Source: Gemmatimonadaceae bacterium
Lineage (GTDB): Bacteria > Latescibacterota > UBA2968 > UBA8231
Reading direction: 5' to 3'
Assembly (NCBI GenBank): GCA_026706075.1
Contig: JAPOZM010000001.1
Location: 80,230-144,229, forward strand
Length of the DNA stretch: 64,000 bases
Made by a program: the position numbers and the translations under genes. The notes below the pieces were generated by a model that saw only the letters and a list, made by a program, of their open reading frames with translations, made no database searches and had not been told where the DNA came from. Shown here piece after piece: positions 21,878 through 57,548 of this stretch. Position 1 is the first letter of the stretch; each line of letters starts with the position of its first letter.

Positions 21878-21900
21878 GGAAGCCGGAACGGTGCGCCGCC

Positions 21901-23493
21901 CTACCGGAGGGGCGACAGCAGCGTCACCACCAGCAGGGCCAGGCCGATCCAGCCCAGCAGGGCCTGGAGGTTGACGAGGAGGCGGAGCGCGCCGGTGGGG
22001 CGCCAGGAGGTCTGGCCGGAGCGCACGAAGGTCTGGAGGCTGAAGAAGAGGCAGTCGAGGAGGGAGGCCCTGGCGGCGCCGGTGACCGGCGCCAGTCCGC
22101 CGCGTCCGAGCCGGTAGAGCAGGCCGAAGAGGAGGACGGCGGAGGCCGCGGCGCCGGCGAAGCGGCCGAGGTCGGTGCCGTAGCGGCTGCTCCGGCCGTA
22201 CAGCTCCAGGCCCCAGCGGGCCGGGTCCGACCACCCCAGGTGCCGGCGCCGCAGGTCCATCCACTCGGCGTGGCAGGCCTCGGCGTCGCGGAACCGGCCC
22301 TGGCTGCGCAACTGGGCCCCAAGGTCGGCGTAGACCGGCTCGAGGTCGTCGATCGATCCCGGATCGGCCGCCGCCAGCCGGCCGCGCAGCTCGTCCCAGC
22401 GGAAGCGCAGCTCGTCCCAGCGCGCTTCCTGCAGGTAGAGGGCGGCGCTGTCGCCGAAGGTGACCTGGGCGGGGTCCGCCGCCAGGAAGGTGACCGTCGA
22501 GCCTCGGACCCGGCGCAGGTCCAGCCCCTGCTGGACCCTCCCCGCGAGGTTCAGCTCCCCGGAGAAGGTGCCGCCGCGGAAGTCCGCGTCCTTGCGGAAG
22601 TAGGCGCCGGCGAAGCCGACCTCCTCGAGAGCCCTGACGCCTGAGAAGCCCGCGGGATCGGCGAAGATGAACTCCTGAAAGGAGGCCGGGCCCTCGAAGC
22701 GGGCGCGGTCGAAGGAGACCTGGCGCTCGGCGCGGGCCTTGTCGAAGCGGGCGGTGCCGGCGAAGACGGACTCCCAGAAGAGGACCCGGCCCCAGAAGCG
22801 GGCCCCGGCGAAGGAGGCATCCGACCACTCCGTCTCCTTGAAGGAGGCGACATCGCCGAAGGTGGCGCTGCTGAAGTCCGCGGGGACGCCGAAACGGGCG
22901 CCCTCGAAGTAGGCGCCGCTGCGGAACCGGACCCGGCGGAAGCTGCTCTCCCCGCCCTCGAAACGGGTCTCGATGAGGGAGCCGACCCCCCGGAACTCGC
23001 CATCGGTGAAGTCGGCCCCGGCGAGGAAGGCCGCCCCTCTGAGGTTGGCCTGCCGGTCGACGATGATGGCCTGGAAGCCGGCGGGTTCATGGAAGCTGGC
23101 GCCCTGCAGAGACAGCCCCCCTTCGAAGGCCGACCCATGGACCCGCACCGGGGCCAGGAAGGCGACCTGTCGAAGAGCGACCTCGCCCGTGAATCTCACA
23201 TCCTCGAGATCGAGGGGGCGGCGCACCGTGTCGAGCCCGGCGGACGCCCCGTCGAGGGAGCCGGCCACGAGGGCATGCCGCAGCCGGACCGGGGTGTTGG
23301 AGTCTCGCCCCATCTCGGTCAGAAGGCTGGCCGCCGACATCCGCGGGCGAGCCCCCCCTGGCGGCGAGGAGCCCGCCGGCTCTTCGGCCACACCCGGGAC
23401 CTGCCACACCTGACAGAGGAACAGGGCCGCAATGGACGGGATGTGCCGTCTCGAGGGCCACCCGGGACAAGGGCGATATCCTCTCTTGATCAC
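21901..23493 (-). CDS. Pentapeptide-repeat protein with degenerate ion-channel-like C-terminus (530 aa)
   Basis: The N-terminus is hydrophobic (HIPSIAALFLCQVWQVPG) and could be a signal peptide or anchor. Residues ~80-350 consist of phenylalanine-centred five-residue repeats (for example ARFWGRVLFWESVFAGTARF), predicting a right-handed quadrilateral beta-helix. A linker of about 70 residues is followed by a hydrophobic segment, then DCLFFSLQTFVRSGQTSW and a last hydrophobic helix. That layout matches a two-helix potassium-channel pore domain in which the TxGYG selectivity filter has been replaced by VRSGQTS. Start is a GTG with a poor ribosome-binding site, so the true start is uncertain. It leads the operon containing the ASPIC lipoprotein and is divergent from the A1 surface-protein gene. 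Confidence 0.7.
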   Translation of the reverse strand: MIKRGYRPCPGWPSRRHIPSIAALFLCQVWQVPGVAEEPAGSSPPGGARPRMSAASLLTEMGRDSNTPVRLRHALVAGSLDGASAGLDTVRRPLDLEDVRFTGEVALRQVAFLAPVRVHGSAFEGGLSLQGASFHEPAGFQAIIVDRQANLRGAAFLAGADFTDGEFRGVGSLIETRFEGGESSFRRVRFRSGAYFEGARFGVPADFSSATFGDVASFKETEWSDASFAGARFWGRVLFWESVFAGTARFDKARAERQVSFDRARFEGPASFQEFIFADPAGFSGVRALEEVGFAGAYFRKDADFRGGTFSGELNLAGRVQQGLDLRRVRGSTVTFLAADPAQVTFGDSAALYLQEARWDELRFRWDELRGRLAAADPGSIDDLEPVYADLGAQLRSQGRFRDAEACHAEWMDLRRRHLGWSDPARWGLELYGRSSRYGTDLGRFAGAAASAVLLFGLLYRLGRGGLAPVTGAARASLLDCLFFSLQTFVRSGQTSWRPTGALRLLVNLQALLGWIGLALLVVTLLSPLR

Positions 23494-23718: not shown

Positions 23719-25899
23719 ATGAAACGAACCGTCCTCTTCGCCAGTGCCGTCCTCGTCCTCAGCACGGCAGCCTCCGGCGAGGTCGTCGTCCTGGGCGGCC
23801 CCGGGAGTTCCTGGGAAGAGGGCGGAGGCGGGATCCAGGCGCAGGTGATCCGCGGCGAGTCAGTGGAGCCTACGAACACCCCGGGCGGCGTCATCGACTT
23901 CTCGGTCGAGGGCTACGACAACTGGATCTTTCCCCAGCGCGCCGACCCGGAGTTGAACATCGCGGTCGGTACCCTCGGGCGCGGCGGCGAGATCACCACT
24001 CCCACCCACCGGGCCATCCGCAACGATCTCGGAAAGATCATCGACGACAGAGGCAACACGGGGCTGGATCTCCGCGAGACACCGGTCCTGGGCCTGATCG
24101 TCGACCTGGATCTCGGTGCCCGCTTCGGTGTCAACCGCTTCCGCTTCTTCCCCCGCAACGCCCTTCCGGAGATGCCGGCCGCCGACTTCCCCTTCCAGAA
24201 CGACTTCCTGCGCGGCTATGAGCTCTTCCTCAACGACGGCACACCCGAGTCGATGAGCCAGGGAAGGCCGATCCGCACGAGCGTGGCCGTGGAGGGGCAG
24301 AACGAGGAACCCGTCGTCGAGATCCGCATCCCGGCCCAGTACGTCCGGCTCATCCGCCTCAAGTCGCTCACCGCGGTCGGGTTCGACCTCGCCGAGTTCC
24401 AGGTCTTCGGGACCGGCTTCGTTCCCGAGGCGGCCTACATCTCCAACATCATCGACTTCGGCGCGCCGACCCTGCTCGGCAACCTCCGCTGGGTCCAGGA
24501 GAAGGTGGGAGACGAGGTCTTCTCACGGGTCAGGGTGCGCACGCGCTCGGGGATCGACCCCCAGCCCCTGATCTTCAACAAGATCCGCCCCGCCGAGGAC
24601 ATCTTCCGCATCTCCGGCCAGTTCTCTCCGCGAGAGTCCCACGTGCCCTGGAAGTTCGCCGACAAGGTCGACGACCCCGAGCTCAAGGCGCTCGTCGAGA
24701 ACGTCCTGGACAACATCGATGTCGACATCCGCGACGCCACCCAGACTTTCAACGAGCTGTCCCTCGAACAGCGCGAGGAGCTCAGTCTGACCGAGGCGGA
24801 CCACGGATCCCTGGCCCGGAAGGACAGGGGCGTGATCCGCCACGACGTGACCGGCTGGAGCGAGTGGTCAGCGGTCTATCCCGCCGAGGCCGTGGTCGCG
24901 GCCGATGAGCTTCAGGTGGAAGGGCTCGGCGTCCCGATCGTCTCGCCCAGTCCGCGGCGGTACTTCCAGGTATTGATCGAGTTCTACAGCGATGAGTTCG
25001 AATCGGCCACCGGCGTCGGCGGACTCGCCTTCGACGTTCTCACCCGGCCCTTCTCCGGGGCCCTCGTCGGGGAGATCCGGCCGCGAAGGGCGGAACTCGG
25101 CGAGAAGACCCGCTTCACCTACGCGGTCCGCAGCCTCTTCGAGCCGGGCCGCGACCGGGGTTTTGACCGCTTGAAGATCCAGACGCCCCTGCGGGTAGAG
25201 GAAGTCGGATCGGTGGAGATCCGGCGGGCCGACGGCACCGTGGAGGCGGCGGACTTCACCGGCAGCCCCCTGTCGGACTCGGACCTGCCCGTGGCCCGGG
25301 GAGATTTCTCCATCCTGGAGGTCGAGGAGAAGACCTTCACCGTGGGGTTCCCGGTCGTGGCCGAGGACGGGGCCGAACTGCGCGTCACCTTCGACAACGC
25401 CGTGCTCCGCTTCGGCACGACCTTCTCGGGCCAGGCCCTGAACTCGGAGACCGGCGCCGTGTTGGGACAGCACCTTCTCCCTGGCAACGCCGCCGACCTG
25501 GGAGAGGGCGACGGCGACACCCTCCCGCTGGGCTCGCAGGTGGCGGGCAACCTGGCCGTGCACGTGGGGATCACCGACGACCTCCTCGTCAACGTCAACG
25601 CCTCGCCGGCGGTGATCACGCCCAACGGAGACGGGGCCAACGACCAAACCTCGATCGGCTACGACCTGACCACCATCGGCGCGCCGACGCCGGTGGAGGT
25701 CGTCCTTCGCGACCTCTCCGGCCGGCCGGTCCGCCGTCTGTACGCCGGCAACGACGTGAGCGGACGCTTCGCCCTGCCCTGGGACGGCCGCGACGACGCC
25801 GGCAGGATCGTGCCGCCGGGAAACTACGTCTTCAGCGTGACGGTTGACGCGAGGACGGGACTGGCGCGGGCCTTCGGCACCGTCGCCGTGACCTACTAG
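23719..25899 (+). CDS. A1: secreted discoidin-like surface protein with TPNGDGxND/FlgD-Ig tail (726 aa)
   Basis: Signal peptide MKRTVLFASAVLVLSTAASG, cut after ASG. Residues ~50-235 resemble a discoidin/F5-8 type C beta-sandwich, ending with the family linker FGTGFVPEAAYISNIIDFG. Next come a strand-rich middle (with DVTGWSEWS and SPSPRRYFQVLIEF) and a GEIRPRRAELGEKTRFTY domain. The C-terminal ~100 residues are VITPNGDGANDQTS followed by a FlgD-Ig fold ending WDGRDDAGRIVPPGNYVFSV. That tail resembles the type-B/CHU_C and T9SS-type sorting domains of Bacteroidetes, suggesting export and surface attachment. The same module order occurs in A2 (33378) and A3 (35330). The ATG at 23719 is chosen for the signal peptide. 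First gene of a six-gene operon; B1 follows after 11 bp. No enzymatic motif is seen. Confidence 0.75.
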   Translation: MKRTVLFASAVLVLSTAASGEVVVLGGPGSSWEEGGGGIQAQVIRGESVEPTNTPGGVIDFSVEGYDNWIFPQRADPELNIAVGTLGRGGEITTPTHRAIRNDLGKIIDDRGNTGLDLRETPVLGLIVDLDLGARFGVNRFRFFPRNALPEMPAADFPFQNDFLRGYELFLNDGTPESMSQGRPIRTSVAVEGQNEEPVVEIRIPAQYVRLIRLKSLTAVGFDLAEFQVFGTGFVPEAAYISNIIDFGAPTLLGNLRWVQEKVGDEVFSRVRVRTRSGIDPQPLIFNKIRPAEDIFRISGQFSPRESHVPWKFADKVDDPELKALVENVLDNIDVDIRDATQTFNELSLEQREELSLTEADHGSLARKDRGVIRHDVTGWSEWSAVYPAEAVVAADELQVEGLGVPIVSPSPRRYFQVLIEFYSDEFESATGVGGLAFDVLTRPFSGALVGEIRPRRAELGEKTRFTYAVRSLFEPGRDRGFDRLKIQTPLRVEEVGSVEIRRADGTVEAADFTGSPLSDSDLPVARGDFSILEVEEKTFTVGFPVVAEDGAELRVTFDNAVLRFGTTFSGQALNSETGAVLGQHLLPGNAADLGEGDGDTLPLGSQVAGNLAVHVGITDDLLVNVNASPAVITPNGDGANDQTSIGYDLTTIGAPTPVEVVLRDLSGRPVRRLYAGNDVSGRFALPWDGRDDAGRIVPPGNYVFSVTVDARTGLARAFGTVAVTY

Positions 25900-25910
25900 G
25901 AGGAGCGAGC

Positions 25911-28727
25911 TTGAGGTACATCAGGCTTCTCGCCGTCACCGCCGCGCTGCTGTCCGGCGCCCCGGTGCTCGGCCAGCAGGACTACGGAACGCGGCTCGGC
26001 CTCCAGCGCGGGGGCGAGGTGAGCTTCGCCCCCCAGGGCTCCGGGGTGCTCTTCGGGGCCCTCGATCCCTCGATCAAGAAGTGGTACATCCCGCAGGAGC
26101 TGTTCAACTATTACGGCTGGCGGCAGTGGGAGTACTCCAACTACGCCCGGGAGCCCTACCAGCGCTACGTGGGAACGAACCGGGAAGGCGATTTCTTCTA
26201 CGACGTATACGGCAACTTCACCACCCACGGCTGGCTCATCTACGACTGGCGGCAGTTCCAGCCCCAGTCCGAGGGCAGCGGCATCTTCCAGTCGACTCGC
26301 TTCAACTCCTGGTTCAACGCGGTCACCGTCAGCGGCGACTCCCAGGGACAGTACGCCTACTCCATCACCGTGGGAGACCGCATCCGCACCACCCTGACGC
26401 CGATGACCTTCTCCAAGCCGGGGTTCAACGGGGTGCAGATCGACTTCTCCTCCGACAAGTACCACGCCACGGTGCTGTCGTCGCGCATCAGCGAACCGAT
26501 CCACGGCTCCTCCCAGGGCCTGGCGGGTGTCACCGCGCCGACCCGGCGGACGAACCTCACCTCCCTCTTCGGAGGCCGCGCCACCTTCCAGGTGGGCGAC
26601 TTCATCCTCCTGGGCGCCACCGTGGTGAACGCCACCAACGGCACCACCGTCCTCGACATGTTCGACGGCGACCCGGTGGCCGGCAACCTGACCTCGGGGC
26701 AGAGCACGGCCCCCCTCACGGCGATCGCCGTCGTCCTGAGCGACGACTCGCCCGAGGACGGCAGGGGAGGCGCCGCCCTCTTCAGCCACGACGTGCGCAT
26801 CACGGCGCGGGATTTCGACACGGGGGCGGAGACGGTCTACACGCTGAGCGACGTCGTGCGCCCCGGCAGCCAGTGGCCCATCGTCTTCGGTGGCGCCCCG
26901 GGCTCAGGCTTCCTCGCCGCCGACGGCGAGGAGCGCATCATCCTCAACTACGACTTCAACGACCCGGCTTTCGCCCCGCCCGCGGGAGTCGATCCCACGA
27001 CGATCGTCAGGATCGAGTTCGACTACGTCCTGGCCAACGACTACAAGGTCGAGTTGTGGTCCGACCGGCAGAGTGCCCGTCGGGGCATTCCCCAGGCTCC
27101 GCTCACCGCGGATGTCATCGACGAGGCCAGGCCCGCCCTCCTCACCCTGCGCCGGGCCGAGGGCAACGTCGCCGACCTGACGAACCTGCAGCGCATCCGC
27201 TTCGACTACGGGCTGCCCACGGCCAACCTCGTGGGCGGCTTCACCATCGAGGGGACCGGTCTCTTCGGCCTCGACTTCTACGGGGAGTGGGATCGCAACA
27301 AGCGCTACACCCAGTATCCGAACGCCGAGCTTTTCAATCTGCGGGAGCAGCACAAGATCGCGTCGGAGTCGTCGGACGCCTGGTACGTCAACCTGTCGCG
27401 GGACGAGTATCCCTGGTTCGCCTTCGGCGAGGCCTACTCCATCGACGGCGCCTACTCGACCACGGCCTACCTGGTCAACAACGAGGGCAACACCGTCTAC
27501 GACGACACCCAGCTCTATTTCTACGAGTTCGTAGATGACAACGACGACCAGGACAGCTCCCCGGACTGGATCCGTTTCGACTCGCCCAGAGACCGGGCCA
27601 TCTACCCGGGGTGGGACCAGAACAACGACTTCATCTCCGACTTCAACCAGAACGACAACGCCTCGGCGAACAACACCATCCCCGACTACGACGAGCCCTT
27701 CCTTCGGTATCGCGTCGATCGTCCGGAGTTCCTCTTCGGCATCGATCTGAACAACAACGACTGGATCGACCGATTCGAGGACGACGACCTGCCCGACTAT
27801 CCATACAAGCCCGACCGGCGGGGCTACAACGCCTTCGCCGGCTACCACCTGACCCCCTGGGCGCGGCTCTCCCTGGGCCGAACCGACGAAGAGTCACCCT
27901 CCTCCGACGCGGCGAACCAGACGAACTACGCCCTCTTCACCGTCGACTGGCAGCAGGCGGGCCTCGGCCGTCTGCGCCTCTTCGACATGCTCAAGCTGGC
28001 CCGTGACACGATCCCCGACGACCGCCGGGAGCCCACCCCCCATGTCCTGGCCCTCACCGTCCAGCCCCTGGTGCGGGACATCCTGCCCGCCCAGGACACG
28101 TGGGTGAACTCGGCCTACGCCGAGCTCACCTACGAGGGCGTCCCCGGGCTCCAGATGGTGCACAAGCTGAAGTGGGAGACCTACCGGCAGAACATGGAGG
28201 GCCCACGCGACAGCGACGGCCGGCGCCTGCGGAGCGAGACCGACTTCTTCGGTCTCATCAACAAGGCCGACTACACCCTCGGCCTGGGACGGTTCGACCT
28301 GCAGCCGCGGATCAAGAGCGAGTACCTGAGACGCCAGGCCTTCGCCCTGGTGGACCCACGCAGGGAGGAGTGGACCCTCACTCTGCAGCTCATCGGACGC
28401 CTGCCCGTCATGCGCCACACCGTCATCGAATCCGGCCTGGAGCAGCTCTGGTTCGGCGACCTGGTGCAGGACGAGGATGCCCTTCTGGCCGAGGCGTTGC
28501 AGCGAGAGACGGGCGACTGGCGCTCGACCAACGTGGCCTTCCAACTGTCGACAACCTCCGACTACCTCGGCTACAAGCTCACGACCCAGGTCGGCTTGCG
28601 CCTGGGTCGCATTCTCACCGAGCAGGTCGTCGAGGAGGACGATCGTCCGGGCTCATTCGTCCTCGAGAACCAGGGGAAGACCGAGACGACGACTTTCATC
28701 ACCGTCTACGCGGGGCTTGAGCAGTGA
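25911..28727 (+). CDS. B1: large predicted outer-membrane beta-barrel with Asp/Asn-rich insert (938 aa)
   Basis: TTG start preceded by AGGAG. Signal peptide MRYIRLLAVTAALLSGAPVLG, cut before QQDYG. The mature N-terminus is aromatic-rich (SIKKWYIPQEL, YGWRQWEYSNYAREPYQRY, FYDVYGN). The second half consists of alternating amphipathic strands, and the protein ends TTTFITVYAGLEQ, similar to the terminal strand of outer-membrane barrels. Between about 27529 and 27811 lies an acidic segment (VDDNDDQD, PGWDQNNDFISDFNQND, DYDEPFLRYR, FGIDLNNN, DRFEDDDLPDYPYK). This looks like a calcium-binding or extracellular loop region and is conserved in B2. I do not recognise a named family. It overlaps the chaperone gene P by GTGA. 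It may be a translocon, porin or anchor for the A proteins. Confidence 0.65.
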   Translation: MRYIRLLAVTAALLSGAPVLGQQDYGTRLGLQRGGEVSFAPQGSGVLFGALDPSIKKWYIPQELFNYYGWRQWEYSNYAREPYQRYVGTNREGDFFYDVYGNFTTHGWLIYDWRQFQPQSEGSGIFQSTRFNSWFNAVTVSGDSQGQYAYSITVGDRIRTTLTPMTFSKPGFNGVQIDFSSDKYHATVLSSRISEPIHGSSQGLAGVTAPTRRTNLTSLFGGRATFQVGDFILLGATVVNATNGTTVLDMFDGDPVAGNLTSGQSTAPLTAIAVVLSDDSPEDGRGGAALFSHDVRITARDFDTGAETVYTLSDVVRPGSQWPIVFGGAPGSGFLAADGEERIILNYDFNDPAFAPPAGVDPTTIVRIEFDYVLANDYKVELWSDRQSARRGIPQAPLTADVIDEARPALLTLRRAEGNVADLTNLQRIRFDYGLPTANLVGGFTIEGTGLFGLDFYGEWDRNKRYTQYPNAELFNLREQHKIASESSDAWYVNLSRDEYPWFAFGEAYSIDGAYSTTAYLVNNEGNTVYDDTQLYFYEFVDDNDDQDSSPDWIRFDSPRDRAIYPGWDQNNDFISDFNQNDNASANNTIPDYDEPFLRYRVDRPEFLFGIDLNNNDWIDRFEDDDLPDYPYKPDRRGYNAFAGYHLTPWARLSLGRTDEESPSSDAANQTNYALFTVDWQQAGLGRLRLFDMLKLARDTIPDDRREPTPHVLALTVQPLVRDILPAQDTWVNSAYAELTYEGVPGLQMVHKLKWETYRQNMEGPRDSDGRRLRSETDFFGLINKADYTLGLGRFDLQPRIKSEYLRRQAFALVDPRREEWTLTLQLIGRLPVMRHTVIESGLEQLWFGDLVQDEDALLAEALQRETGDWRSTNVAFQLSTTSDYLGYKLTTQVGLRLGRILTEQVVEEDDRPGSFVLENQGKTETTTFITVYAGLEQ

Positions 28728-30382
28728 GGCGTCTGCTCGTACCGGCGGCCGGACTCGCCCTCGTCATCTCCGGGTGCGGTTCCGATCCGGGGGAGCCCGT
28801 CCTGGCCACCGTCGCCGGCGATCCGATCACCCTCGCCGAGTTCCGCTCCTTCGCCGAGCGCATACCGGAGGGTATGAAGGAAGGCGAGACGCCCTACGAG
28901 CGGGACCGCCAGCTCCTGGAAAGCCTGGTAGACAGGGAACTGCTGCTGAAGGCCGCGTTGGACACCGGCGTCGAGTCCGACCCCGAGGTGCAGGACGATC
29001 TGGAGCAGTTCGAGCACAGGTACCTCCGCAAGCTGCACTATCGGGAGTACATCGCCCGCCGGGTGACGATCACGCCGGAGGAAGTGGAGGCTCACCATCG
29101 CGCCACCGGGCGCCACCGGGCCCTGCGGCTGGGCGCCATCATGCTGCATGAAGCGGCCGAGGCGGACTCGATTCACGCCCTCTTGAAGGCTGGAGCCGAC
29201 TTCAAGGCCCTGGCGAGAAAGCACTCGGTCCACGAGCCGACGGCCCCAAAGGGGGGAGACTTCGGCACCTATCTCGTCCGGGACCAGATGCCCCCGCAGG
29301 CGGGCAAGGTGGCCGCCGACCTCGCGGTGGGGGCCTTCACCGAGCCCTTGCGCGAGACTCTGCGCCGCGTGGGCCGGTTCCACGCGATCTACATGGTTCT
29401 CGACGAGGTGCCCTCCCCCCTGAGCGTTTCCGAGACGATCGTCGTCGAGGAGGTGGCCCTGCGCAAGCGTGACGAGCGCATGCGGGAGTACCTCGACTCC
29501 CTGCGGTCCGTCTACCCCGTCCGGGTGCGCGGTGCGACCGTGCGCCTAGCGGCGGAGCGGGTCTCCGAAGCCGAGGAAACCGGACCAGACCTGAGCGACT
29601 CGGAGTCGGGAGAGGTGATCGCCACCTACGGCGACCGGGAGGTCACGTTGGGCCGTTTCTTCGAGATGGCGCGCCAGGCGAAGGCGAAGGGAGTCGAAGA
29701 GGCGGACAGCCTCGCCATCGCGCAACTGCTGGACGACCAGATCCTCTCGGAGCTGTTCATCCAGGCCGAGATCGAGGCCGCCGGGCTGCGGGAGGACGCC
29801 GGTCTCCGCAAGGCGGTGGGCCTCAAGCGGCAGGAATTGCTCGTCACCGCCCTGCGGCGCCGCGAGGTGACCAGTCACGTCCGCGCTTCCGACGAAGAGG
29901 CCCGTCGGTTCTACGACGAGAATCCGGACCAGTTCACCCGGCCGGAGTACACCTCCGTCGTCGAGATCGTCGTCGCCTCCGACACCATGGCCATGCGCCT
30001 GCGGCAGGAGCTGGAGGAAGGCGCCGACGCCGAGATGCTGGCGGCAGAGCACACCCTGCGTCCGGGGGCCGCCCATCACAACGGCCGGCTCAACGTGAGC
30101 ATCTTCACCCAGAGCTTCTTCCCCGTCCTGGCCGAAAAGGTCTCCGAGGTGGAGGTCGGCGGCGTCGGAGGCCCCTTCGAGGTAGCCATGGGGCATTCCG
30201 TCTTCAAGGTGCTGGAGCGGGAGGCCTACAAGGACCCCTACAACGAGGAGTCGAAGCGCCGCGCCAGGGCCTACGTGCGCATCGCCAAGTCCCAGCGAGG
30301 GTACTCGGAGTACGTCCGCGGTCTCCGTGAGGAGTATCCCGTGCAGATCTTCGAGGATCGGCTGCGAAGGATCGAGGGATGA
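28724..30382 (+). CDS. P: SurA/PpiC-like peptidyl-prolyl isomerase lipoprotein with duplicated architecture (552 aa)
   Basis: Lipoprotein signal with lipobox VISGC (Cys about 18). The protein repeats a SurA-like unit twice. Unit one: chaperone helix region VLATVAGDPITLAEFRSFAERI onward, then a parvulin-type PPIase domain around KHSVHEPTAPKGGDFGTYLV and QAGKVAADLAVGAFTEPL. Unit two: VIATYGDREVTLGRFFEMARQ onward, then a more degenerate parvulin domain ending GGPFEVAMGHSVFKVLERE. Such periplasmic proteins escort outer-membrane proteins to the BAM machinery. It overlaps both flanking barrel genes (GTGA with B1, ATGA with B2), which argues strongly that B1 and B2 are its clients. A general PpiD is encoded separately at 52893-54710. 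Confidence 0.8.
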   Translation: MRRLLVPAAGLALVISGCGSDPGEPVLATVAGDPITLAEFRSFAERIPEGMKEGETPYERDRQLLESLVDRELLLKAALDTGVESDPEVQDDLEQFEHRYLRKLHYREYIARRVTITPEEVEAHHRATGRHRALRLGAIMLHEAAEADSIHALLKAGADFKALARKHSVHEPTAPKGGDFGTYLVRDQMPPQAGKVAADLAVGAFTEPLRETLRRVGRFHAIYMVLDEVPSPLSVSETIVVEEVALRKRDERMREYLDSLRSVYPVRVRGATVRLAAERVSEAEETGPDLSDSESGEVIATYGDREVTLGRFFEMARQAKAKGVEEADSLAIAQLLDDQILSELFIQAEIEAAGLREDAGLRKAVGLKRQELLVTALRRREVTSHVRASDEEARRFYDENPDQFTRPEYTSVVEIVVASDTMAMRLRQELEEGADAEMLAAEHTLRPGAAHHNGRLNVSIFTQSFFPVLAEKVSEVEVGGVGGPFEVAMGHSVFKVLEREAYKDPYNEESKRRARAYVRIAKSQRGYSEYVRGLREEYPVQIFEDRLRRIEG

Positions 30383-33366
30383 GGATGAACGCCATCCATG
30401 GAGTCCGGAGAAACGGACCCGGCAGGGGTTTCCTCGTCCTCCTTCTCCTGGCCGGCGGTCCGGTCACGGCGGTCGCCCAGGTCGACTACGGCCACCGGCT
30501 GGGGAACCAGGAGCGGGGCCCTTCCCAGTACAGCGTCTCCGGTCCGAGAGTGCTCATGGAGGCCCTCGACCCGACGATCAAGCGGTGGTACCTGCCACAG
30601 GAGCTCTTCCGGGAGTACGGCCGGCGCCAGTGGTCGTACACGAATCACGCCCGCCAGCCCTACCTGCCGTACGTGAGTCACGCCCACGAGGGCAACTATT
30701 TCTACGACTACTACGGCAACCTCGTCACCCAGGGGTGGCTGGTCTACGACTGGCGCCAGACCCAGGCCCGGACCGTTGACAGCAGCCGCATCACCAAGCT
30801 CGCGCGGTATGACAGCTGGTTTCACCGCCTCATCATCTCCTCCGATGCGACCGGCGACAACAGCTATTCCCTGACCGTGGGCGACGAGATCTTCGCGAGC
30901 CTGACGCCGATGACCTTCCGCAAGGCCGGCTTCAGTGGCGTCATGACGGACTTCGCCTCCAACCGCCTGCGCGCCACGGGGCTCTTCGCCCGCCCCTCCG
31001 ACCCGGTGGTGCTGATCTTCGGAGGCATCGCCGGGGTCCCCCAGAGCAACTACACCAACCTGATGGCCGGGCGCCTCGAGGCGGACGTGACCGACTTCAT
31101 GACCCTCGGGGCCACCTTCGTCAACGCCCACAACGCGGCGGGCATCCGCGACTCCTTCCAGAGCAACCCCCTGAGAGGGGCCCTGACCACGGGCCAGCTG
31201 AGCAGCCGCGTGAACCTGCTCCTCGTGCGGCTGCGGGACGACTCGCCCGAGGACGGCGAGGGCGGGCCCATCCTCTTCGACTCCGACATCGAGATCACCA
31301 CCTCCCTGTGGCACGAGGTTGTCGTCGAGGGCGGGACCCAGCGCGTGCTCCGGGACACCACGATCAGCGGCCGGAGCCTCGGCTTCTACCCCACCATCGA
31401 GGGCGGAGAGGTGCGTGACGGTTTCCGCCGGGCCGACGGTCAGCACAGCATTACCATGTACTACACCCTGGCCCCGGAAGAGGGGGATTCCGAGGCCGGG
31501 ACTTTCAGGCTGCTGCTGCAGAGGGCCCTCGATCTCAACCTGGACGAAGCGGACGAGGCTGTCACCCGGATCAGGAACGTGCGCTTCCGCCTGCGCCTGG
31601 CCAACGACTACGCCATCGAGGTCGCCTCCGACCGCCAGATCGACCGCCACGACGTCCCCCAGTTCCTCGAGGTGGCGCGGGCGGCGGGCAACGTCAAGAA
31701 CCAGTTGAACCCGGAGGAGGTCGTCTTCGACTACGGCCTGCCCACGGCGACACAAGTCGCCGGCCTGACCGCGGAGATCCGCGACCTGGCGGGCTTCGAC
31801 TTCTACGGCGAGTTCAACCTGAGCACGAGTGTCCGCCAGTATCCCGGCACCCTCCTCGAGAAGCACGACAGCTTCTCGGGCATCGTCGGCGACGAGCACG
31901 CCCTCGGCTTCCAGGTCAACCTGTCGAAGAAGACCGGACCGCTGCGGCTCTTCCTCGAGGGCTTCGGCATGGACGACGCTTACTCCACGAGCATCAAGCC
32001 GGTCACCACCCGCGGAATCGTGGACTACTCGCCGGAGGCGACCGAGGGGATCTACGACTTCGTCGACGACAACGACGACCAGGACCGCCACCCCGACCAG
32101 GCTCGGAGGTTCCACGGCGGACTGATCCGGCCCCATGGGACATCGGTCCGGGGCTTTTTGGAGACCTCGCTGGGCGTCGCCGACCCGGCCGTGTTCCCGG
32201 GCTACGACGAGAACGGGGACCTCATCTCCGATTTCAACCAGAACAGCAACGGCGACCAGGACAACTACTTCCCCGACTACGAGGAGCCCTTCCTGCGCCA
32301 CAGGAGCGACCGTCCGGAGTTCCTCTTCGGCATCGACCTCGACAACAACGGCGTGGCCGAGCGCTTCGAGAACGACGATCTCCCCGACTACCCCTACAAG
32401 AAGGGCCACTGGGGCTACAACGCCCACGGCACTCTTCGCGTCAACCCCGACCTCGAGCTCACGGCAGGCTACCTGCGCCAGGACCTGCGCAGCGCCGACC
32501 GCTCCAACCGCACTCCGTACGGCCTCGTCGAGCTGGTGCGGGACCATCCGGGATGGGGACGGCTGCAGCTCTTCGACATGGTCAAGCTCGCCCGGGACAC
32601 GATCGCCGACCCCGTCAACTTGTGGATGATGCCCAGTCTCGACTACGGAGCCGCCGGCCAGTCGGTGGGTGTCAGCATTCCCCGACCCGACCCTCTGGCG
32701 GCCGAGGACACCTGGATCAACAGCTTTGCCGCCGACTGGAGCTACGTGAGCCCACGGGGCTGGTCGATGCGGCACCGGGTCAAGTGGGACTGGTGGCGGC
32801 AGCGGAACGCGGAGCCCACCTTCGCCGTCGACGAGGAGGGCGCCGCCCTGCTGAACGAGGAAGGAGAGCCCGTGGTGCTCTTCGACCCGCTCGGACCCGA
32901 GGCCCGCAACGGCCGGGAGACCTCCGGCTTCGCCGGCGTCATCAACAAGGCGGACCTGCTCTTCCACGTGGGGCGGCTGTCCTTTTCGCCGCGGATCAAG
33001 AGCGAGTGGCGCAACGAGGCGCCTTTCTCCCGGGACGAGGAGCGGCGCCGGTCCTGGGACGGCATCGCCTCCCTGCTCGTGCGCATGCCATTCATGGCAC
33101 ACACCCATCTCGAGTTCGGGATCGAGGGACGCAATTTCGCCGAGTTGAGGGCCGACGAGGAGGAGCTTTCGCCCAGTACCCTGACCGGGGACTACCGCGG
33201 CGTGGTCTACGCAGTTCAGTTGACCAATCGCCGGCCTTTCAAGAGCTACCTCGCCACCACCCAAGTCGGACTCCGATTCGACCGGCGTTCCCTGGAGGTC
33301 GTCGAAGGGAACCGCGCGCAGCGCACGGCCGGGCTGGCCTTTGTCACTGTATTCATGGGTCTCTAA
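30379..33366 (+). CDS. B2: paralogue of B1, predicted outer-membrane beta-barrel (995 aa)
   Basis: Signal peptide ending AVAQ, mature protein starting VDYGHRLGNQ (B1: QQDYGTRLGLQ). It matches B1 along its length: LDPTIKRWYLPQEL, RRQWSYTNHARQPY, VFDYGLPTA, and the acidic segment at about 32051-32400 (FVDDNDDQD, PGYDENGDLISDFNQN, RPEFLFGIDLDNN, FENDDLPDYPYK). B2 has about 30 extra residues within that acidic segment (HGGLIRPHGTSVRG region). The C-terminus, GLAFVTVFMGL, again resembles a barrel-closing strand. The ATG overlaps the P stop (ATGA); A2 follows after 11 bp. That both paralogues are kept within one operon suggests two non-redundant pores or a hetero-oligomer. No named family recognised. 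Confidence 0.65.
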   Translation: MRMNAIHGVRRNGPGRGFLVLLLLAGGPVTAVAQVDYGHRLGNQERGPSQYSVSGPRVLMEALDPTIKRWYLPQELFREYGRRQWSYTNHARQPYLPYVSHAHEGNYFYDYYGNLVTQGWLVYDWRQTQARTVDSSRITKLARYDSWFHRLIISSDATGDNSYSLTVGDEIFASLTPMTFRKAGFSGVMTDFASNRLRATGLFARPSDPVVLIFGGIAGVPQSNYTNLMAGRLEADVTDFMTLGATFVNAHNAAGIRDSFQSNPLRGALTTGQLSSRVNLLLVRLRDDSPEDGEGGPILFDSDIEITTSLWHEVVVEGGTQRVLRDTTISGRSLGFYPTIEGGEVRDGFRRADGQHSITMYYTLAPEEGDSEAGTFRLLLQRALDLNLDEADEAVTRIRNVRFRLRLANDYAIEVASDRQIDRHDVPQFLEVARAAGNVKNQLNPEEVVFDYGLPTATQVAGLTAEIRDLAGFDFYGEFNLSTSVRQYPGTLLEKHDSFSGIVGDEHALGFQVNLSKKTGPLRLFLEGFGMDDAYSTSIKPVTTRGIVDYSPEATEGIYDFVDDNDDQDRHPDQARRFHGGLIRPHGTSVRGFLETSLGVADPAVFPGYDENGDLISDFNQNSNGDQDNYFPDYEEPFLRHRSDRPEFLFGIDLDNNGVAERFENDDLPDYPYKKGHWGYNAHGTLRVNPDLELTAGYLRQDLRSADRSNRTPYGLVELVRDHPGWGRLQLFDMVKLARDTIADPVNLWMMPSLDYGAAGQSVGVSIPRPDPLAAEDTWINSFAADWSYVSPRGWSMRHRVKWDWWRQRNAEPTFAVDEEGAALLNEEGEPVVLFDPLGPEARNGRETSGFAGVINKADLLFHVGRLSFSPRIKSEWRNEAPFSRDEERRRSWDGIASLLVRMPFMAHTHLEFGIEGRNFAELRADEEELSPSTLTGDYRGVVYAVQLTNRRPFKSYLATTQVGLRFDRRSLEVVEGNRAQRTAGLAFVTVFMGL

Positions 33367-33377
33367 GGACGGGGATC

Positions 33378-35297
33378 ATGACCAGGACGGGACGTACCAT
33401 CGCGCAGGCCCTGACCCTGCTGCTGGGCCTCGGCACCACCGCCCAGGGACTGACCATCTACCGCATCGGGGGCTCGATTCTACCACCGCCCGAGCTGCCC
33501 GAGGGGGCCGACTTCGTGCAACTGGAGTGGCAGGCCGCCAAGGACAGCGATCACGGCGCCATCGATCTGCTGCACGGGCTCGAGCCCGACGCCCTGGAGC
33601 CGGACAGGCTGGACCCGACGGTGAACCTGGCCCCCGTTTTCGACGAGATCGGCGGGAGCATCTACAGCTACGCCACGCACGGCTTCGTGGCCGGGTTCAA
33701 GGCAGAGGCCGCCCTCTTTGACGGCGACCCCGAGACCGTGCTCCTCGGGGACGGCCACTGGGGCGGAGCCAGCCACTACCGCTTCCTGGAAATCGTCTTC
33801 GACTTCCCGGGCACCTTCACCATCTCGCGGATCAGGATGTATCCGCGCGAGCGATACATCTCGAACCGCTTCGTCCAGTGGTTTCGCATCGGGTTCAACG
33901 ACGCCGAACGCACCAGAAGGGGCGGCCCGGTCATCCGCGCCCGCAACTGGGAGTTCGAGGTCGTCTACGAGGACCTCGAGAACTCCCGGGGGCTCATCGA
34001 GTTGACCGCCCTGCCCGAGTACCCGGTGAAGGAGCTGCTCGTCTCGTTGGCCGAGAACACGCAGGGCATCTGGGAAATGGCCGAAATCGAGGTCTACGGC
34101 CGGGGCTACACGCCGGAGGCCGCCTACGTGAGCCAGGTCATCGACCTCGGGGGCCCCTCCGCGTTGGGGGACCTCAGTTGGTCCGCCGAGGTCGACCCCG
34201 GAGCCGACCTGACGTTGCGCATGCGGGCCGGGGACGATCCGGTTCCGAACACTTACTGGCGTTACACCTTCCGCGGCAGCGGGGCCACCAGCCGCTTGGA
34301 CGAGCAAGGCCAGCCCCTGACAAAGGGCGGATACTTGAGCCTGGACAGGCGGGAACGGGCCGGGACCACGCCGGACACCGAGAACTGGGACGGTTGGAGC
34401 ACATCCTTCGATCACTCCGAAGGGACCGTGCCTTTCCAGGCCTCACGGCCCCGTCAGTACCTCCAGGTGCGCGCCGATTTCAACTCCACCGTCGACGCCG
34501 GCTCCCGCCTCCAGTACCTCCAGTTTGCGGTCTCCCAGCCGCCGGCCGCCACCGTGGTCCTCGGGGAGATCACCCCGACCGTGGCCTCCGTCGACGAGGT
34601 GACGCCCTTCACCTACCTGATGACGCCTGTCATGCGCTCCGGGAACTTCGGGTTCGACCGCATCCGCATCGACACGCCCACCACCGCGGCCGGCGTCGAC
34701 GGTGTGCGCTTCAACGGCCAGCCCGTCGCCTACGAGGTCCTTCACCTCGACGAGTCGGGCTTCGAGATCGCCATCCCCCGGGTCGACGAGAGCCGCGACG
34801 GCGAGCTCATCGAGATCGACTTCCGCTCCCGGATCTTCCGCTTCGGCACCGTCTTTTCCGGCCGGGTCATGGACAGCCAGCGGCCCGAGGAGGTGGCGCA
34901 GGTGGTCTCCCCCGGCGAGGCGGACCCGATCGTCGACAGCAACACCCTGAGCGTCGGCCTGGAGGAGGTGGGCCGGCGGACGGTCAATGCCCTCACCCTC
35001 GAGCCGCCGGTCTTCAGCCCCAACGGAGACGGCATCAACGACCGGGTGAGTCTCGACTACGAGCTGGTGAACGTGGAGGGCGACGCCGAGGTGGCCATCG
35101 TCCTCTACGACCTGCGGGGCTCGCCCGTGGAGGAGGTCTTCCGCGGCGCGGCCGGCAGCGGCCGGTTCCGCGCGGAGTGGGACGGCCGCGATGCCGGGGG
35201 ACGCCTCCTCGGGCCTGGGATCTACATCCTGCGGATCGAGGTCGAGTCGGACCTCGGAATCAGGTCCAGGGAGAGGGTCGTTTCCCTCGTCTACTAG
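33378..35297 (+). CDS. A2: secreted discoidin-like surface protein with SPNGDGxND/FlgD-Ig tail (639 aa)
   Basis: Signal peptide cut after TTAQG. The discoidin-like domain (about 95-245) has LFDGDPETVLLGDGHW, LEIVFDFPGTFTISRIRMYPRE and EIEVYGRGYTPEAAYVSQVI, and then the same sequence of modules as A1: LGDLSWSAEVDPGADLTLRM, NWDGWSTSFD, SRPRQYLQVRADF, LGEITPTVASVDEVTPFTY and FRFGTVFSGRV. The tail reads VFSPNGDGINDRVS, then a FlgD-Ig domain with YDLRGSPVEE and WDGRDAGGRLLGPGIYILRI. It is the shortest of the three paralogues. The ATG follows GGACGGGGATC. Predicted to be exported and held at the surface; ligand unknown. Confidence 0.72.
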   Translation: MTRTGRTIAQALTLLLGLGTTAQGLTIYRIGGSILPPPELPEGADFVQLEWQAAKDSDHGAIDLLHGLEPDALEPDRLDPTVNLAPVFDEIGGSIYSYATHGFVAGFKAEAALFDGDPETVLLGDGHWGGASHYRFLEIVFDFPGTFTISRIRMYPRERYISNRFVQWFRIGFNDAERTRRGGPVIRARNWEFEVVYEDLENSRGLIELTALPEYPVKELLVSLAENTQGIWEMAEIEVYGRGYTPEAAYVSQVIDLGGPSALGDLSWSAEVDPGADLTLRMRAGDDPVPNTYWRYTFRGSGATSRLDEQGQPLTKGGYLSLDRRERAGTTPDTENWDGWSTSFDHSEGTVPFQASRPRQYLQVRADFNSTVDAGSRLQYLQFAVSQPPAATVVLGEITPTVASVDEVTPFTYLMTPVMRSGNFGFDRIRIDTPTTAAGVDGVRFNGQPVAYEVLHLDESGFEIAIPRVDESRDGELIEIDFRSRIFRFGTVFSGRVMDSQRPEEVAQVVSPGEADPIVDSNTLSVGLEEVGRRTVNALTLEPPVFSPNGDGINDRVSLDYELVNVEGDAEVAIVLYDLRGSPVEEVFRGAAGSGRFRAEWDGRDAGGRLLGPGIYILRIEVESDLGIRSRERVVSLVY

Positions 35298-35329
35298 ATG
35301 CTGATAGATGCTGACAGGAGGGTCCGCAC

Positions 35330-37984
35330 ATGACACGGATCATCAGCTTCCCCGCCCTTCTGGTCCTGGTTGCCGCCACTGGCCTGACGGCCCAGGGCCG
35401 GGCGTACCGGATCGCCGGCGACGAGCTTGTCGTCGACCGCCGCAGCCTCTGGCAGAACTGGATCTATTCCGAGGAAACCCTCGAGGTCTCCCCCTCGGGG
35501 GAGGTGAGCCCCCTCGCCCTGCGCAAGGACATCAACGCCGTCCCCGAGATCGTCCGCTACCTGCGCCTCCATCCACCGCCGCACCTCAAGAACAAGGAGC
35601 CCGAGGAGATCACCCTCGCCGACGCCTTGCAGGCCGGCTCCAACCCCCGTGACGTGGTCAATGTCCTCGACGGGGACCCGACCACATACTGGCAGCCCGA
35701 CCTGACCGACGCCCCCCCCGTCGAGCTCGGCGCGCGCTGGTGGCTCATGGTCGACCTGGGAAGGAACGTCATCGCCAAGAGGCTGGTACTCCGGTTCGCG
35801 GAGGAGGAACTGGGCGATCCGTTCCTTCAGTTCGACGTCCTCGTCTCAAACGGCGAGCGTTCGCCGTCGGCCGCCGCTTCGAAACACCCGTTCTTCGCAA
35901 CGGTGTACCGAACGTTGAGGCCCAACAAGGACGTCCGGGTGCTGGACCTCACCTTCGAGGACGTAAACGCCGATTCCGTCGTCGGCGAGGCGCCGCTGGC
36001 CGCCATCCTGCCGCCATCCACCGTCGACCGCGACCACAGCGTGCAGGCCCCCAGGGAACTCGCGGGCGCCTCGCTGCGATACGTCATGGTGGTCGTCCGT
36101 GACAGCGACTTCGACCGCGGCCGGCTGGTCAGCCCCGAGGCCTACGCCGCCCTGCCCGAGGACGACAAGGGCGCCGTCGTCCACCACAAGCTGCAGCGGG
36201 ACGGCCGGCTCACCGAGTTGAGCGAAGCCGACTACCTGCGTCTGCCCGCCGGACAGCAGGGAGAGATCCTCCACTACCGCAAGGAGCGGCCCCGCCTGGC
36301 CGACATCGAGGTGTGGACCGAGGGGGACAACGTCATGCCCGCCATCTACAAGCGCGGCGGGGAAATCAGCGGCAACGCGAACCTGAACTACGGCAGGCTG
36401 GTGGACGGCCTCGTGGGCTCCTTCACCGAGGTCAACATGGGCCGAGAAGGGTACGTCCTCTTCGACCTGGGGGCCACCTTCTGGCTCGACGCCTACCGGC
36501 TGATGTACGGCGGCGTCACGAACCGCGAGAGGAAGAGCTTCAACTCCTACGATCTCGAGGCCTCCGACGGATCCCTGAACCCCGACGGCACCCTGAAGTT
36601 CAAGACCGTGGCCCGCCGCATACAGAAGCAGATGCGCAAGGACTTCGAGGTTCACGACTTCGACCTCGTGAAGACCCGGTTCTTCCGTCTCGTCTTCGAG
36701 TTGGGCTTCACCCACGAGCAACCTCACACCTCCGCGCCAGGGGAGATCTACCTCTACGGCCGGGGATACATCGCCGAAGTCCGCATGGAGTCGGGCCTGG
36801 TCGAGCTAGGAGCCCGCCGCAACCTTCTGAGCATGTCCTGGGAAGCAGACACCCCGCCTGGGACCGCAATCTCGATCCAGACCCGCGCCGGCAACGAGCT
36901 GCGGGAGGTCCTCCACTACTACAAGGCCGACGGCACGGAGATCAGCGAGAAGGCCTACAACAATCCGTCCCTGCTGGCTTCCTTGAAGGGCCCCATCGTC
37001 GCCGAGATGGTGGAAGGAGACGACTGGAGCGGCTGGAGCCAGCCCTACGAGGACGCCTCGGGGAGTCCCTTCCTCTCTCCCTCCCCGAGGGAGTTCCTCA
37101 ACATCTCCGCCACCCTGGTCTCGGACGATCCCGATCTGCACCCTACGCTTCGCTCCCTCCGGCTGCGCTTCAGCAACCCCGTCGCACAGGGGCTCCTTGC
37201 GGAGGTGACCCCCACCCGGGTCGACTCGCTGGGGGTCCCGCGGGACTTCTCCCTCTTCCTGCGGCCCGAGTTCGACAGGCGGGACCCGGGATTCGACGAG
37301 CTGCTGCTCAGGACGCCCCCCGACATGTCCCTGGAATTCGCCGGGCTCTACGCCGGGACGGCCGAGGAGTTCGACGGCGGGGGCGGTACCCTGGTAGAGG
37401 ATGTGGAGATCCTTCCCACCGGTCCCGACAGCCTGCGCCTCTCCTTCCCCATGGTGGAGCCCCGCGGGATCGAGGTGTTGCGCCTCGACTTCCGAACCGC
37501 CCTGTTCACCATCGGCGCCCAGTTGCAGGCCGCGGTCAAGCGGGCCCGGGACGGTGAGGACGCCTGGCAGCGGGTCGATCCCGGCGACGCCCTCGCCAGC
37601 GTCGACAGCGAAGCGATCACCCTCATCGGCGAAACCACCGGCGGCAGCCTGCTTGCCGGTGTGAACCTGAGTTCCCCGGTCATCACGCCCAACGGCGACG
37701 GGATCAACGACGAAGCCCTGTTCTCGCTCAAGGTCGTCCGCGTCGCCGACGGGAGTCCCGTGGACCTGCGAATCCACGACCTCGGGGGCCGGCTCGTTCG
37801 CCGGATCGTCGAGCACGGGTCCGCGGGTACCGGTCTCTACGAGATCGCCTGGGACGGCCTCGACGCCAACGGGCTCGTCGTGCCCCCGGGGATCTACCTC
37901 GTGCGCCTGCGAGTCGACACCGACGACGGCGGGCGCCGCCTGGAGGGCCGCGAGGCGGTGCGGACCCTGGCCGTCTCCTACTGA
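35330..37984 (+). CDS. A3: secreted discoidin-like surface protein, longest paralogue, TPNGDGxND/FlgD-Ig tail (884 aa)
   Basis: Signal peptide cut after TAQG. Two discoidin-like domains appear to be present. One is near VLDGDPTTYWQPDL and WWLMVDLGRNVIAKRLVLRF; the other is near LNYGRLVDGLVGSFTEVNMG and VLFDLGATFWLDAYRL, ending EIYLYGRGYIAEVRME. The rest follows A1/A2: DWSGWSQPY, SPSPREFLNISATL, LAEVTPTRVDSLGV, then VITPNGDGINDEAL and FlgD-Ig (WDGLDANGLVVPPGIYLVRL). An unusual feature is a short repeat: YAALPEDDKGAVVHHKLQRDG, followed directly by YLRLPAGQQGEILHYRKE, with a third related copy HYYKADGTEISEKAY at about 36914. It lies 32 bp after A2 and closes the operon. Confidence 0.72.
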   Translation: MTRIISFPALLVLVAATGLTAQGRAYRIAGDELVVDRRSLWQNWIYSEETLEVSPSGEVSPLALRKDINAVPEIVRYLRLHPPPHLKNKEPEEITLADALQAGSNPRDVVNVLDGDPTTYWQPDLTDAPPVELGARWWLMVDLGRNVIAKRLVLRFAEEELGDPFLQFDVLVSNGERSPSAAASKHPFFATVYRTLRPNKDVRVLDLTFEDVNADSVVGEAPLAAILPPSTVDRDHSVQAPRELAGASLRYVMVVVRDSDFDRGRLVSPEAYAALPEDDKGAVVHHKLQRDGRLTELSEADYLRLPAGQQGEILHYRKERPRLADIEVWTEGDNVMPAIYKRGGEISGNANLNYGRLVDGLVGSFTEVNMGREGYVLFDLGATFWLDAYRLMYGGVTNRERKSFNSYDLEASDGSLNPDGTLKFKTVARRIQKQMRKDFEVHDFDLVKTRFFRLVFELGFTHEQPHTSAPGEIYLYGRGYIAEVRMESGLVELGARRNLLSMSWEADTPPGTAISIQTRAGNELREVLHYYKADGTEISEKAYNNPSLLASLKGPIVAEMVEGDDWSGWSQPYEDASGSPFLSPSPREFLNISATLVSDDPDLHPTLRSLRLRFSNPVAQGLLAEVTPTRVDSLGVPRDFSLFLRPEFDRRDPGFDELLLRTPPDMSLEFAGLYAGTAEEFDGGGGTLVEDVEILPTGPDSLRLSFPMVEPRGIEVLRLDFRTALFTIGAQLQAAVKRARDGEDAWQRVDPGDALASVDSEAITLIGETTGGSLLAGVNLSSPVITPNGDGINDEALFSLKVVRVADGSPVDLRIHDLGGRLVRRIVEHGSAGTGLYEIAWDGLDANGLVVPPGIYLVRLRVDTDDGGRRLEGREAVRTLAVSY

Positions 37985-55739: not shown

Positions 55740-56739
55740 CCCATCTCCAGCAGGCGGCGCCGTGGCCCGGGCCGACTTCCTCCAGGGACGGGGACTCGCC
55801 GCGACAGCGGTCCTCCGCCAGTGGGCACCGGGGGTGGAAGCGGCAGCCCGAGGGCAAACCCGTGGCCTCGGGGACGCGGCCGGGGATGACCTCCAGGCGG
55901 TTCAAGGGACCCTCGAGCCGCGGGACCGAGCGCAGCAGCCCCCTCGTGTAGGGATGGCGGGGGTCGGCGAAGAGCCGCGCCGTCTCCGCCGTCTCCACGA
56001 TGCGCCCCGCGTACATCACCGCCACCCTGTCGGCGGCCTCGGCCACGACGCCGAGATCGTGGGTGATGAGCAGGACGGCCATGTGGAACTCGGCCTGCAG
56101 CCGTTGCAGCAGGTCCAGAATCTGGGCCTGGGTGGTCACGTCGAGGGCCGTGGTCGGCTCGTCGGCGATGAGCACGTCGGGGGCGCAGGACAGGGCCATG
56201 GCGATCATGACCCGCTGCCGCATTCCGCCGCTGAGCTGGTGCGGGTACTCGTCGACGCGCTGCTCCGGAGCCGGGATGCCGACCCTCTGCATCATGTCGA
56301 CGGCCCGCTCCCGCGCCTCCTGCCGGCCCGCGTCCCGGTGCCGGCGGATGGCCTCGGCAATCTGGTCGCCGCAGGTCAGGACCGGATTGAGGCTGGTCAT
56401 GGGCTCCTGGAAGATCATGGCGATTTCGTTACCCCGGACGCCGCGCATCTCCTCCTCCTCCAGGTCGAGGAGATCGCGCCCCCGGAGCCGGATCCGGCCC
56501 CCCTCGATCCGGACCGGAGAGGAGACCAGCCGCAGTACGGACAGGGCGGCGAGGCTCTTGCCGCAGCCGCTCTCTCCCACCAGCCCCAGGGTCTCGCCCC
56601 GGCGGAGGTGAAAGGAGAGTCCGTCGACGGCGCGTCCGACCCCGCTCCGGGTGTGGAACCAGGTGCGCAGATCGCGCACCTCGAGGACCGGCTCTTCGCC
56701 TGCCGCCGGGCCCGGGGGCGAAGGGGGCACGGCCGTCAC
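55726..56739 (-). CDS. dppD: Oligopeptide/dipeptide ABC transporter ATP-binding protein, DppD/OppD type (337 aa)
   Basis: Partner of the preceding ATPase. Walker [14 protein letters not shown]-loop [13 protein letters not shown], signature [15 protein letters not shown] and Walker [14 protein letters not shown] are present, as is the oligo_HPY C-terminus [14 protein letters not shown] with [15 protein letters not shown] chose GTG 56739, which overlaps the lplA stop (GTGA); the longer upstream frame runs through lplA in another phase and is not coding. The two ATPases form a heterodimer in peptide importers. Confidence 0.88.
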
Positions 56740-57548
56740 CGGGAGAGTGGGGCGGCGTCTGTAGCCCGCAGTGCGTGGCCCTCCGTGGCGTACGTCTCCC
56801 GGGCCAGGACCTCGGCCCGCCGCCGCTCCGCGGGGGTCAGCGGGGCCTCGCGAACCGGCAGCCCGAGGACGTGACCGAAGCCTGTCGCCAGGCAGCCCAC
56901 GAGACGGTCTCTGTCCAGAGGCTCCCCGGCGCACTCGGCCAGGTGAGTGCTCGCAGCCTCCAGAGACGGATCCCCCTGCCGAGGAGCCGGGATCAGCTCC
57001 GCCAGGCGCAGGTGCTCGGGCCCGGCCAGCAGGGAACCGTGCTGCAGCAGCGCCCCCCGCGTCCGGCGCTGGGCGCTGCCCACCAGCTTTCGGCCGCCGC
57101 TGGTCAACTCCCAGCGCGAGGCGCTGGCGAAGCAGGCCCCGTGCCGGGCGCCGGGACGCCCCCCGGGAGCCAACTCGACGTCGACCCCGCCGCGCCGCAG
57201 GCCCTCGGCCAGACACTCCCCGAGGATGCGGCACGCCTCCGGCAGGGGATGGGCCGCGGGGCCCTCGCCCTCGGCGCAGTGAAAGCTGTAGGTGATCTCG
57301 TTCCAGTGCAGGACCGCCCGCCCCCCCGTGGGGCGGCGAACGATGTCGATGCCGAGGTCCCGGCAACGGTCGACATCGACGGCCTCCCGGGCGCGCTGGC
57401 CCAAGCCGAGACTGACCGCCGGGGGGCTCCACCCGTAGGTGCGCAGGATCGGGCCGCCGCCGCCGCGGGCGGCGTCGAGGAGGACGTCGTCGACGGCCAT
57501 GTTGAGCGCCCCCGGCAGCGCCCCCGTGTCCAGGAAGCGCATGGACAT
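56736..57548 (-). CDS. lplA: Lipoate-protein ligase A family protein (270 aa)
   Basis: Cofactor-transferase fold that attaches lipoate or octanoate to lipoyl domains. The signature [19 protein letters not shown] holds the adenylate-binding loop and the GGRAV turn, and [13 protein letters not shown] holds the catalytic-site lysine. [11 protein letters not shown] is the conserved N-terminal helix. It lacks the C-terminal accessory domain of E. coli LplA, so it could be a LipM-like octanoyltransferase or need a separate partner. The ATG overlaps the rnc stop (TGATG), and the stop overlaps the dppD start. In the fab cluster it fits with supply of octanoyl-ACP-derived lipoate. Confidence 0.85.

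Follow-up and report, generated by a model that had tools for sequence, protein, structure and literature searches.

A 64,000-nucleotide window of a Latescibacterota genome deposited as Gemmatimonadaceae bacterium (assembly GCA_026706075.1, contig JAPOZM010000001.1, positions 80,230 to 144,229) contains an operon of six genes for proteins with export-type starts, in the order A1-B1-P-B2-A2-A3. The A and B genes of this family are paired. The operon is likely this group's own route through the type IX secretion system (T9SS), together with a means of holding the product at the cell surface; export of A would run through SprA and be followed by capture by B. We put at about even the chance that B is a lineage-specific carrier or anchor for type IX cargo A, in the role that PorP/SprF barrels have in Bacteroidota. 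The window genome comprises 5.62 Mb on 124 contigs and is 96% complete, with 9% estimated contamination.

The operon and its proteins

The genes and domains in question are as follows, in window coordinates (aa, amino acids; Ig, immunoglobulin).

A1, 23719-25899, plus strand: 726 aa; exported, with a CBM32/discoidin domain and a C-terminal Ig-type domain (FlgD_ig / type IX signal-like)
CBM32/discoidin domain of A1, 23944-24414, plus strand: residues 76-232
C-terminal Ig-type domain of A1, 25552-25896, plus strand: residues 612-726, with the TPNGDGAND motif at 25618-25644
B1, 25911-28727, plus strand: 938 aa, TTG start; predicted outer-membrane beta-barrel of an uncatalogued family
Acidic Asp/Asn-rich loop of B1, 27531-27815, plus strand: residues 541-635, where conservation within the B family is highest
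P, 28724-30382, plus strand: 552 aa, GTG start; tandem-parvulin peptidyl-prolyl isomerase (PPI), lipobox Cys codon at 28775-28777
B2, 30379-33366, plus strand: 995 aa; second member of the B family
A2, 33378-35297, plus strand: 639 aa; A paralogue with a SPNGDGIND tail, F5_F8_type_C and FlgD_ig matches under cut-off
A3, 35330-37984, plus strand: 884 aa; A paralogue, F5_F8_type_C_2 (discoidin) over cut-off, FlgD_ig tail
C1, 38106-39044, plus strand: CBM9-like, export-type start; the CBM9_1 score of 20.2 bits is below cut-off (23.4)
C2, 39230-40198, plus strand: tandem paralogue of C1, 72% identical; weakly CBM9-like

Successive genes of the six are spaced by 11, -4, -4, 11 and 32 bp, with a GTGA overlap between B1 and P and an ATGA overlap between P and B2; a preliminary description of this DNA had order, spacings and overlaps correct to the base. 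It was also right about export signals and paralogy. Judged by eye, each of the six proteins has a hydrophobic export-type N-terminus; A2 and A3 are 33% and 27% identical to A1, and B2 is 43% identical to B1, with a B profile match of 1176 bits. The six open reading frames (ORFs) are unlikely to reflect chance, since third-position GC is 0.88-0.92 across all of them and the families recur in relatives. A1 is the first gene of the unit, because the pentapeptide-repeat frame upstream of it (21901-23493) lies on the opposite strand. At the other end the unit is wider than six genes: the two downstream C genes, of a family that travels with A and B, and the many copies of the operon in the genome are additions to the earlier six-gene account. 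Scans for promoters and terminators did not rise above shuffled sequence (1 promoter-like site versus 0.8 expected; 4 terminator-like sites versus 6.5).

The B proteins are, with good support, predicted to be outer-membrane beta-barrels, as had been proposed, and no search placed them in a soluble family. In an AlphaFold2 model of B1 (predicted local distance difference test 82.4, predicted template modelling score 0.80), antiparallel membrane-spanning strands extend from residue 138 to residue 935, up to the C-terminus, and in each of two fold comparisons all 50 listed rows are, by their titles, outer-membrane barrels. These rows include TonB-dependent transporters, with weak likeness to FimD, LptD and SprA among others. 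The family itself is uncatalogued: neither B protein has a match in Pfam, NCBIfam or PDB sequences, and hmmscan of B1 and B2 up to E 1 gives no Pfam family and no match to the PorP_SprF model (PF11751; 273 positions). At least 926 database relatives exist, and the 120 that were listed are all free of Pfam domains; among the best 120 of 929 matches to a profile aimed at remoter relatives there was likewise no Pfam-bearing family. The acidic loop holds 21 of the 42 invariant columns of the family, and we infer that it is extracellular and calcium-binding-like. B1 and B2 have no Cys. One Foldseek row (6r2q) raised a multihaem or MtrB-type conduit, which we dropped, as CXXCH is found in none of the six proteins. 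The window genome also has a divergent B subgroup (L060, L061, L065 and L066), partly in tandem and 24-27% identical to B1; no P was seen on these stretches.

A1 has a CBM32/discoidin fold, and its C-terminal part superposes on the end of PorU. The C-terminal tail of A is predicted, with good support, to be a type IX secretion-signal domain. FlgD_ig scores are 35.6 bits for A1 and 32.5 for A3 (cut-off 27), and 23.5, below cut-off, for A2. A coding pattern for PNGDGxND occurs at 26, 105, 73, 103 and 100 sites in the five genomes scanned, versus 0 for a reversed-pattern control. In the window genome, 26 of 35 CHU_C matches start at the PNGDG end of the profile; the CHU_C cut-off is exceeded by 16 of these 26 tails genome-wide, 2 of the 16 only with neighbouring matches.

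One could instead see in A and B a nutrient-capture pair resembling SusD and SusC, in which A binds glycan via CBM32 and B imports it, with separate pairs for different glycans. The many A/B pairs per genome, the large 940-residue barrel, the CBM32 domain of A1, the CBM9-like C proteins nearby and the TonB-dependent transporters in the fold lists would all suit such a pair, and an unrecognised plug might lie in the ~115 residues ahead of the first long strand of B1, which are modelled at low confidence. However, the Pfam and NCBIfam scans matched neither A nor B to any plug, TonB-dependent receptor, SusC or SusD model, and the most conserved stretch of B is a predicted outer loop. SusD, moreover, is a lipoprotein, whereas A1-A3 are not, as they contain no Cys. 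We consider such a pair unlikely.

P was described earlier as a SurA-like lipoprotein chaperone. Rotamase (62 bits) and Rotamase_2 (66 bits) both exceed their Pfam cut-offs, giving two parvulin domains, and the Cys of the lipobox, VISGC, is the sole Cys of the protein; SurA_N_3, at 26.8 bits, falls just below its cut-off of 27.2, and no NCBIfam equivalog cut-off is reached. A crude lipobox pattern is present in 18 of 43 P relatives (first 90 residues of untrimmed frames). The further proposal that P folds B is no more than a possibility: in one locus (L113) P comes after four consecutive A genes and lies ~6 kb from the closest B, and in another it adjoins A on a contig without a B match (L099).

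Pairing of A and B genes across genomes

The operon is one of many, in that a B1 query gave 40 matching segments on 13 contigs of the window genome. A search with P gave 10 places, 7 of them on contigs with B (C92, C85, C105, C59, C9, C119 and C74). Through the B gene we retrieved 46 loci, several of which are short contigs, labelled Latescibacterota, Latescibacteria, Gemmatimonadetes, Gemmatimonadota, two Gemmatimonas/Gemmatimonadaceae bins and a few further bins; their genes were called from our own six-frame ORFs and profiles, not from curated annotation. A is present in 44 of these loci, P in 34, A and P together in 33, and C in 28. A, B and P thus co-occur in relatives, as was suggested earlier, and this co-occurrence argues that their association is not due to chance. 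Directly upstream of the B genes stand A (35 cases), another B (19), C (7), P (6), a contig or stretch edge (6) or none of these (6). The order A-B-P-B-A-A recurs in four loci (L009, L013, L017 and L023), in some with larger gaps; other arrangements are found in the rest. The placement of P between two barrels, emphasized in the preliminary description, is real here but elsewhere is one of several arrangements, with B-P-B in 9 loci and adjacent B genes in 19.

The tails of the A proteins give a second view of the pairing. After segments on the same contigs were joined or omitted, the 40 segments of the window genome became 28 B places. Tails that start at the PNGDG end lie within 10 kb of a B in 24 of 26 cases, compared with 1 of 9 for CHU_C matches that start later (Fisher p 1.6e-5). 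For a relative, G003, we used the 100 listed of 103 tails, and 53 B matches were joined to 51. There, 61 of the 100 tails are within 10 kb of a B, in zones that make up 13% of the genome. By profile, an A gene is directly upstream of 36 of the 51 B genes; the other 15 follow another B (9), C (2) or P (1), meet a stretch edge (1) or have none of these (2). The motif is found 301-402 bp before the start of the B profile in 26 of the 51.

For covariation, we took 28 of the 36 G003 pairs and 9 of the 10 window-genome pairs, omitting those without a recognisable motif. In a partial mirror-tree analysis of the G003 pairs, B covaries with a single segment of A, the ~100 residues ahead of the motif (partial r 0.31, permutation p 0.003, which reads as ~0.015, as this partial test on five segments followed sight of a mixed first covariation test). 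In the nine window-genome pairs, the N-terminal, middle and pre-motif segments all have r 0.56-0.58, and the tail -0.06.

Other neighbours recur as well. On the minus strand at 20231-23493 the window encodes an FG-GAP/ASPIC-UnbV protein along with the pentapeptide-repeat protein, and a relative of the latter precedes the A-B block on the minus strand in 12 of the 46 loci. Farther downstream, at 44312-46264, lies a gene for a DUF6785/DUF6784 protein, relatives of which are found by tblastn on 13 of the 46.

Type IX machinery and the proposed export of A

A check for T9SS core genes found SprA, PorU and PorV in the window genome. SprA is a 2193-residue frame (TIGR04189 616.2 bits, cut-off 200; L095:9435-16016 on C92), and a SprA_N match lies at C92:43240-44511. 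The window is C92:80230-144229, and because SprA shares this contig, it is not on a stray contig of another bin. The frame is near LptF/LptG-type and FeoB genes. PorU is found in two places (NF033707 578.9 bits, cut-off 420), and 5 of 12 PorV matches exceed the NF033709 cut-off of 90. On contig C7, PorU (56040-59183) is followed by PorV (59417-60373) and then by a T9SS-dependent inactive M6-like frame that is under its model cut-off.

These genes bear on the earlier proposals that B1 and B2, folded by P, are a new platform that exports A without help from the type IX system, and that no described system has this composition. In their favor, B is a large barrel of an unassigned kind, export barrels being among those that its model weakly resembles, the A tail is of an export type, and the GldL and GldM profiles find no match. 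However, SprA, PorU and PorV are present and could account for the export of A, some runs of A genes have no B close by, and profile comparison does not connect B with the SprA of this genome (hhalign probability 2.7 across 18 columns), nor do B1 and B2 match TIGR04189 or SprA_N. A in part, and P by its domains, also fit described systems; B does not. A separate platform therefore seems to us very unlikely, and the earlier interpretation as a whole holds in part; since the genome has SprA, PorU and PorV and the A tail is type IX signal-like, B is better seen as a partner of the cargo. B as a relative of SprA also ranks lower, on the same hhalign result and lack of a model match, and the 18-column local match, between the acidic loop of B and SprA around PGWD, is probably chance.

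We envisage a path in which A, B, C and P, with their export-type starts, leave the cytoplasm by general export across the inner membrane. P, to judge from its domains and position, would act as a lipoprotein-type tandem parvulin that keeps A and/or B foldable in the periplasm. A would then cross the outer membrane through SprA, the C-terminal Ig domain serving as the signal, after which B would receive A from the translocon and retain it on the cell surface. Contact with B would probably involve the ~100 residues of A before the PNGDG motif and/or the acidic, calcium-binding-like outer loop of B, and the CBM32/discoidin domain of A may bind glycan outside. A fuller picture, which we advance tentatively as somewhat short of an even chance, is that carriers of type IX cargo evolved a second time, independently. 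Calcium-looped barrels of ~940 residues would draw PNGDG-tailed, CBM32-bearing A proteins from SprA and arrange them over the cell surface, P being a parvulin lipoprotein dedicated to this system and C its CBM9-like partner. Tens of such copies would be present in each genome, in a group that lies outside Bacteroidota and has no recognisable GldL/GldM motor.

Several observations weigh against B as a type IX carrier. A1-A3 match CHU_C weakly (15.6-23.5 bits) and do not reach its cut-off of 27; the A tails miss the cut-off of TIGR04131, the type B model, A2 being the sole one listed (E 0.043); and the PorU tail, the best structural match of the A1 tail, is one that we take to be a type A signal. 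GldM (PF12081) and GldL (TIGR03513) have no match in the genome, in searches in which no control genome exceeded either cut-off, and PorP_SprF has none, in a search without a positive control over cut-off. PorU and PorV are possibly foreign, because they lie on other contigs and contamination is estimated at 9%. In G003, 39 of the 100 tails either have no B found within 10 kb or sit on contigs that lack one. One G003 stretch (L109; G003:C93:25000-44900) has seven consecutive A-type frames, the seventh truncated where the stretch ends, and no B, an arrangement reminiscent of the orphan type B cargo of Flavobacterium johnsoniae, three of which share one shuttle according to excerpts of PMC12618676. 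Finally, the covariation is weak, and the segment specificity seen in G003 did not repeat in the window genome.

Some of this would suit A as ordinary type A cargo, handled by SprA with PorV/PorU, and B as an independent surface barrel beside it, a porin or a calcium-dependent platform. PorV and PorU are present, the C-terminal part of A1 superposes on that of PorU, and more than a third of the G003 tails are not near a B. Yet tails of the PNGDG type are near B far oftener than other CHU_C-matching tails, and no PorV match is on a contig with a B match. Ordinary type A cargo likewise seems unlikely to us, and we retain B as the probable partner in a type IX route.

Comparison with known systems

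P resembles the SurA/PrsA/EpsD-type parvulins in its pair of parvulin domains and its lipobox, and differs in the SurA_N_3 score just under cut-off and in reaching no equivalog cut-off. A PPI subunit, its function not known, is present in the F. johnsoniae translocon, as stated in parts of PMC10994853; P is less odd in that light, a likeness for which we claim no kinship. With SusC/SusD the operon shares recurring pairs in which a putative surface protein accompanies a large barrel, as well as a carbohydrate-binding fold, and it differs in lacking TonB, SusC or SusD model matches and in its Cys-free A proteins. As in the type A pathway, PorU and PorV are in the genome and A1 ends in a PorU-like fold; unlike in that pathway, the PNGDG-type tails cluster with B, and PorV and B matches never share a contig.

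T9SS is described as exclusive to Bacteroidota in portions of PMC12618676 and PMC4793230, the latter counting 60 systems in 60 of 97 Bacteroidetes genomes and none in other clades; a passage of PMC11205867 places it in the Fibrobacteres-Bacteroidetes-Chlorobi (FCB) superphylum. A search of the literature for Latescibacter with type IX secretion or T9SS, one that most subscription papers lay outside, found nothing, and priority is not established.

The closest parallel is with type B cargo and its PorP/SprF barrels. In F. johnsoniae, by the sections drawn on here, type B cargo needs a PorP/SprF-like barrel to leave the translocon, the barrel gene is commonly directly downstream, and these carriers are thought to anchor the cargo (PMC12618676, PMC9143113, PMC10994853); the signal of type B cargo reportedly requires as many as 235 residues (PMC12618676). 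Both systems have a cargo gene with a barrel gene immediately after it, as in A1-B1, several such pairs per genome and orphan cargo elsewhere (PMC12618676 and PMC9143113, in part), and the A tails have a PNGDG-type start matching CHU_C. The differences are that B, at ~940 residues, is more than three times the length of the 273-position PorP_SprF model and has a conserved acidic loop; that A1-A3 miss the TIGR04131 and CHU_C cut-offs; that P and C genes are added; and that the nearest labelled relatives of the window genome are Latescibacterota or Gemmatimonadota, not Bacteroidota. If B is indeed such a carrier, barrels of unrelated kinds can perform the carrier step, here a different one in the place of PorP, drawn from a large family without a Pfam domain among its listed members, and the two systems together would provide a natural experiment to locate the cargo region that a carrier reads.
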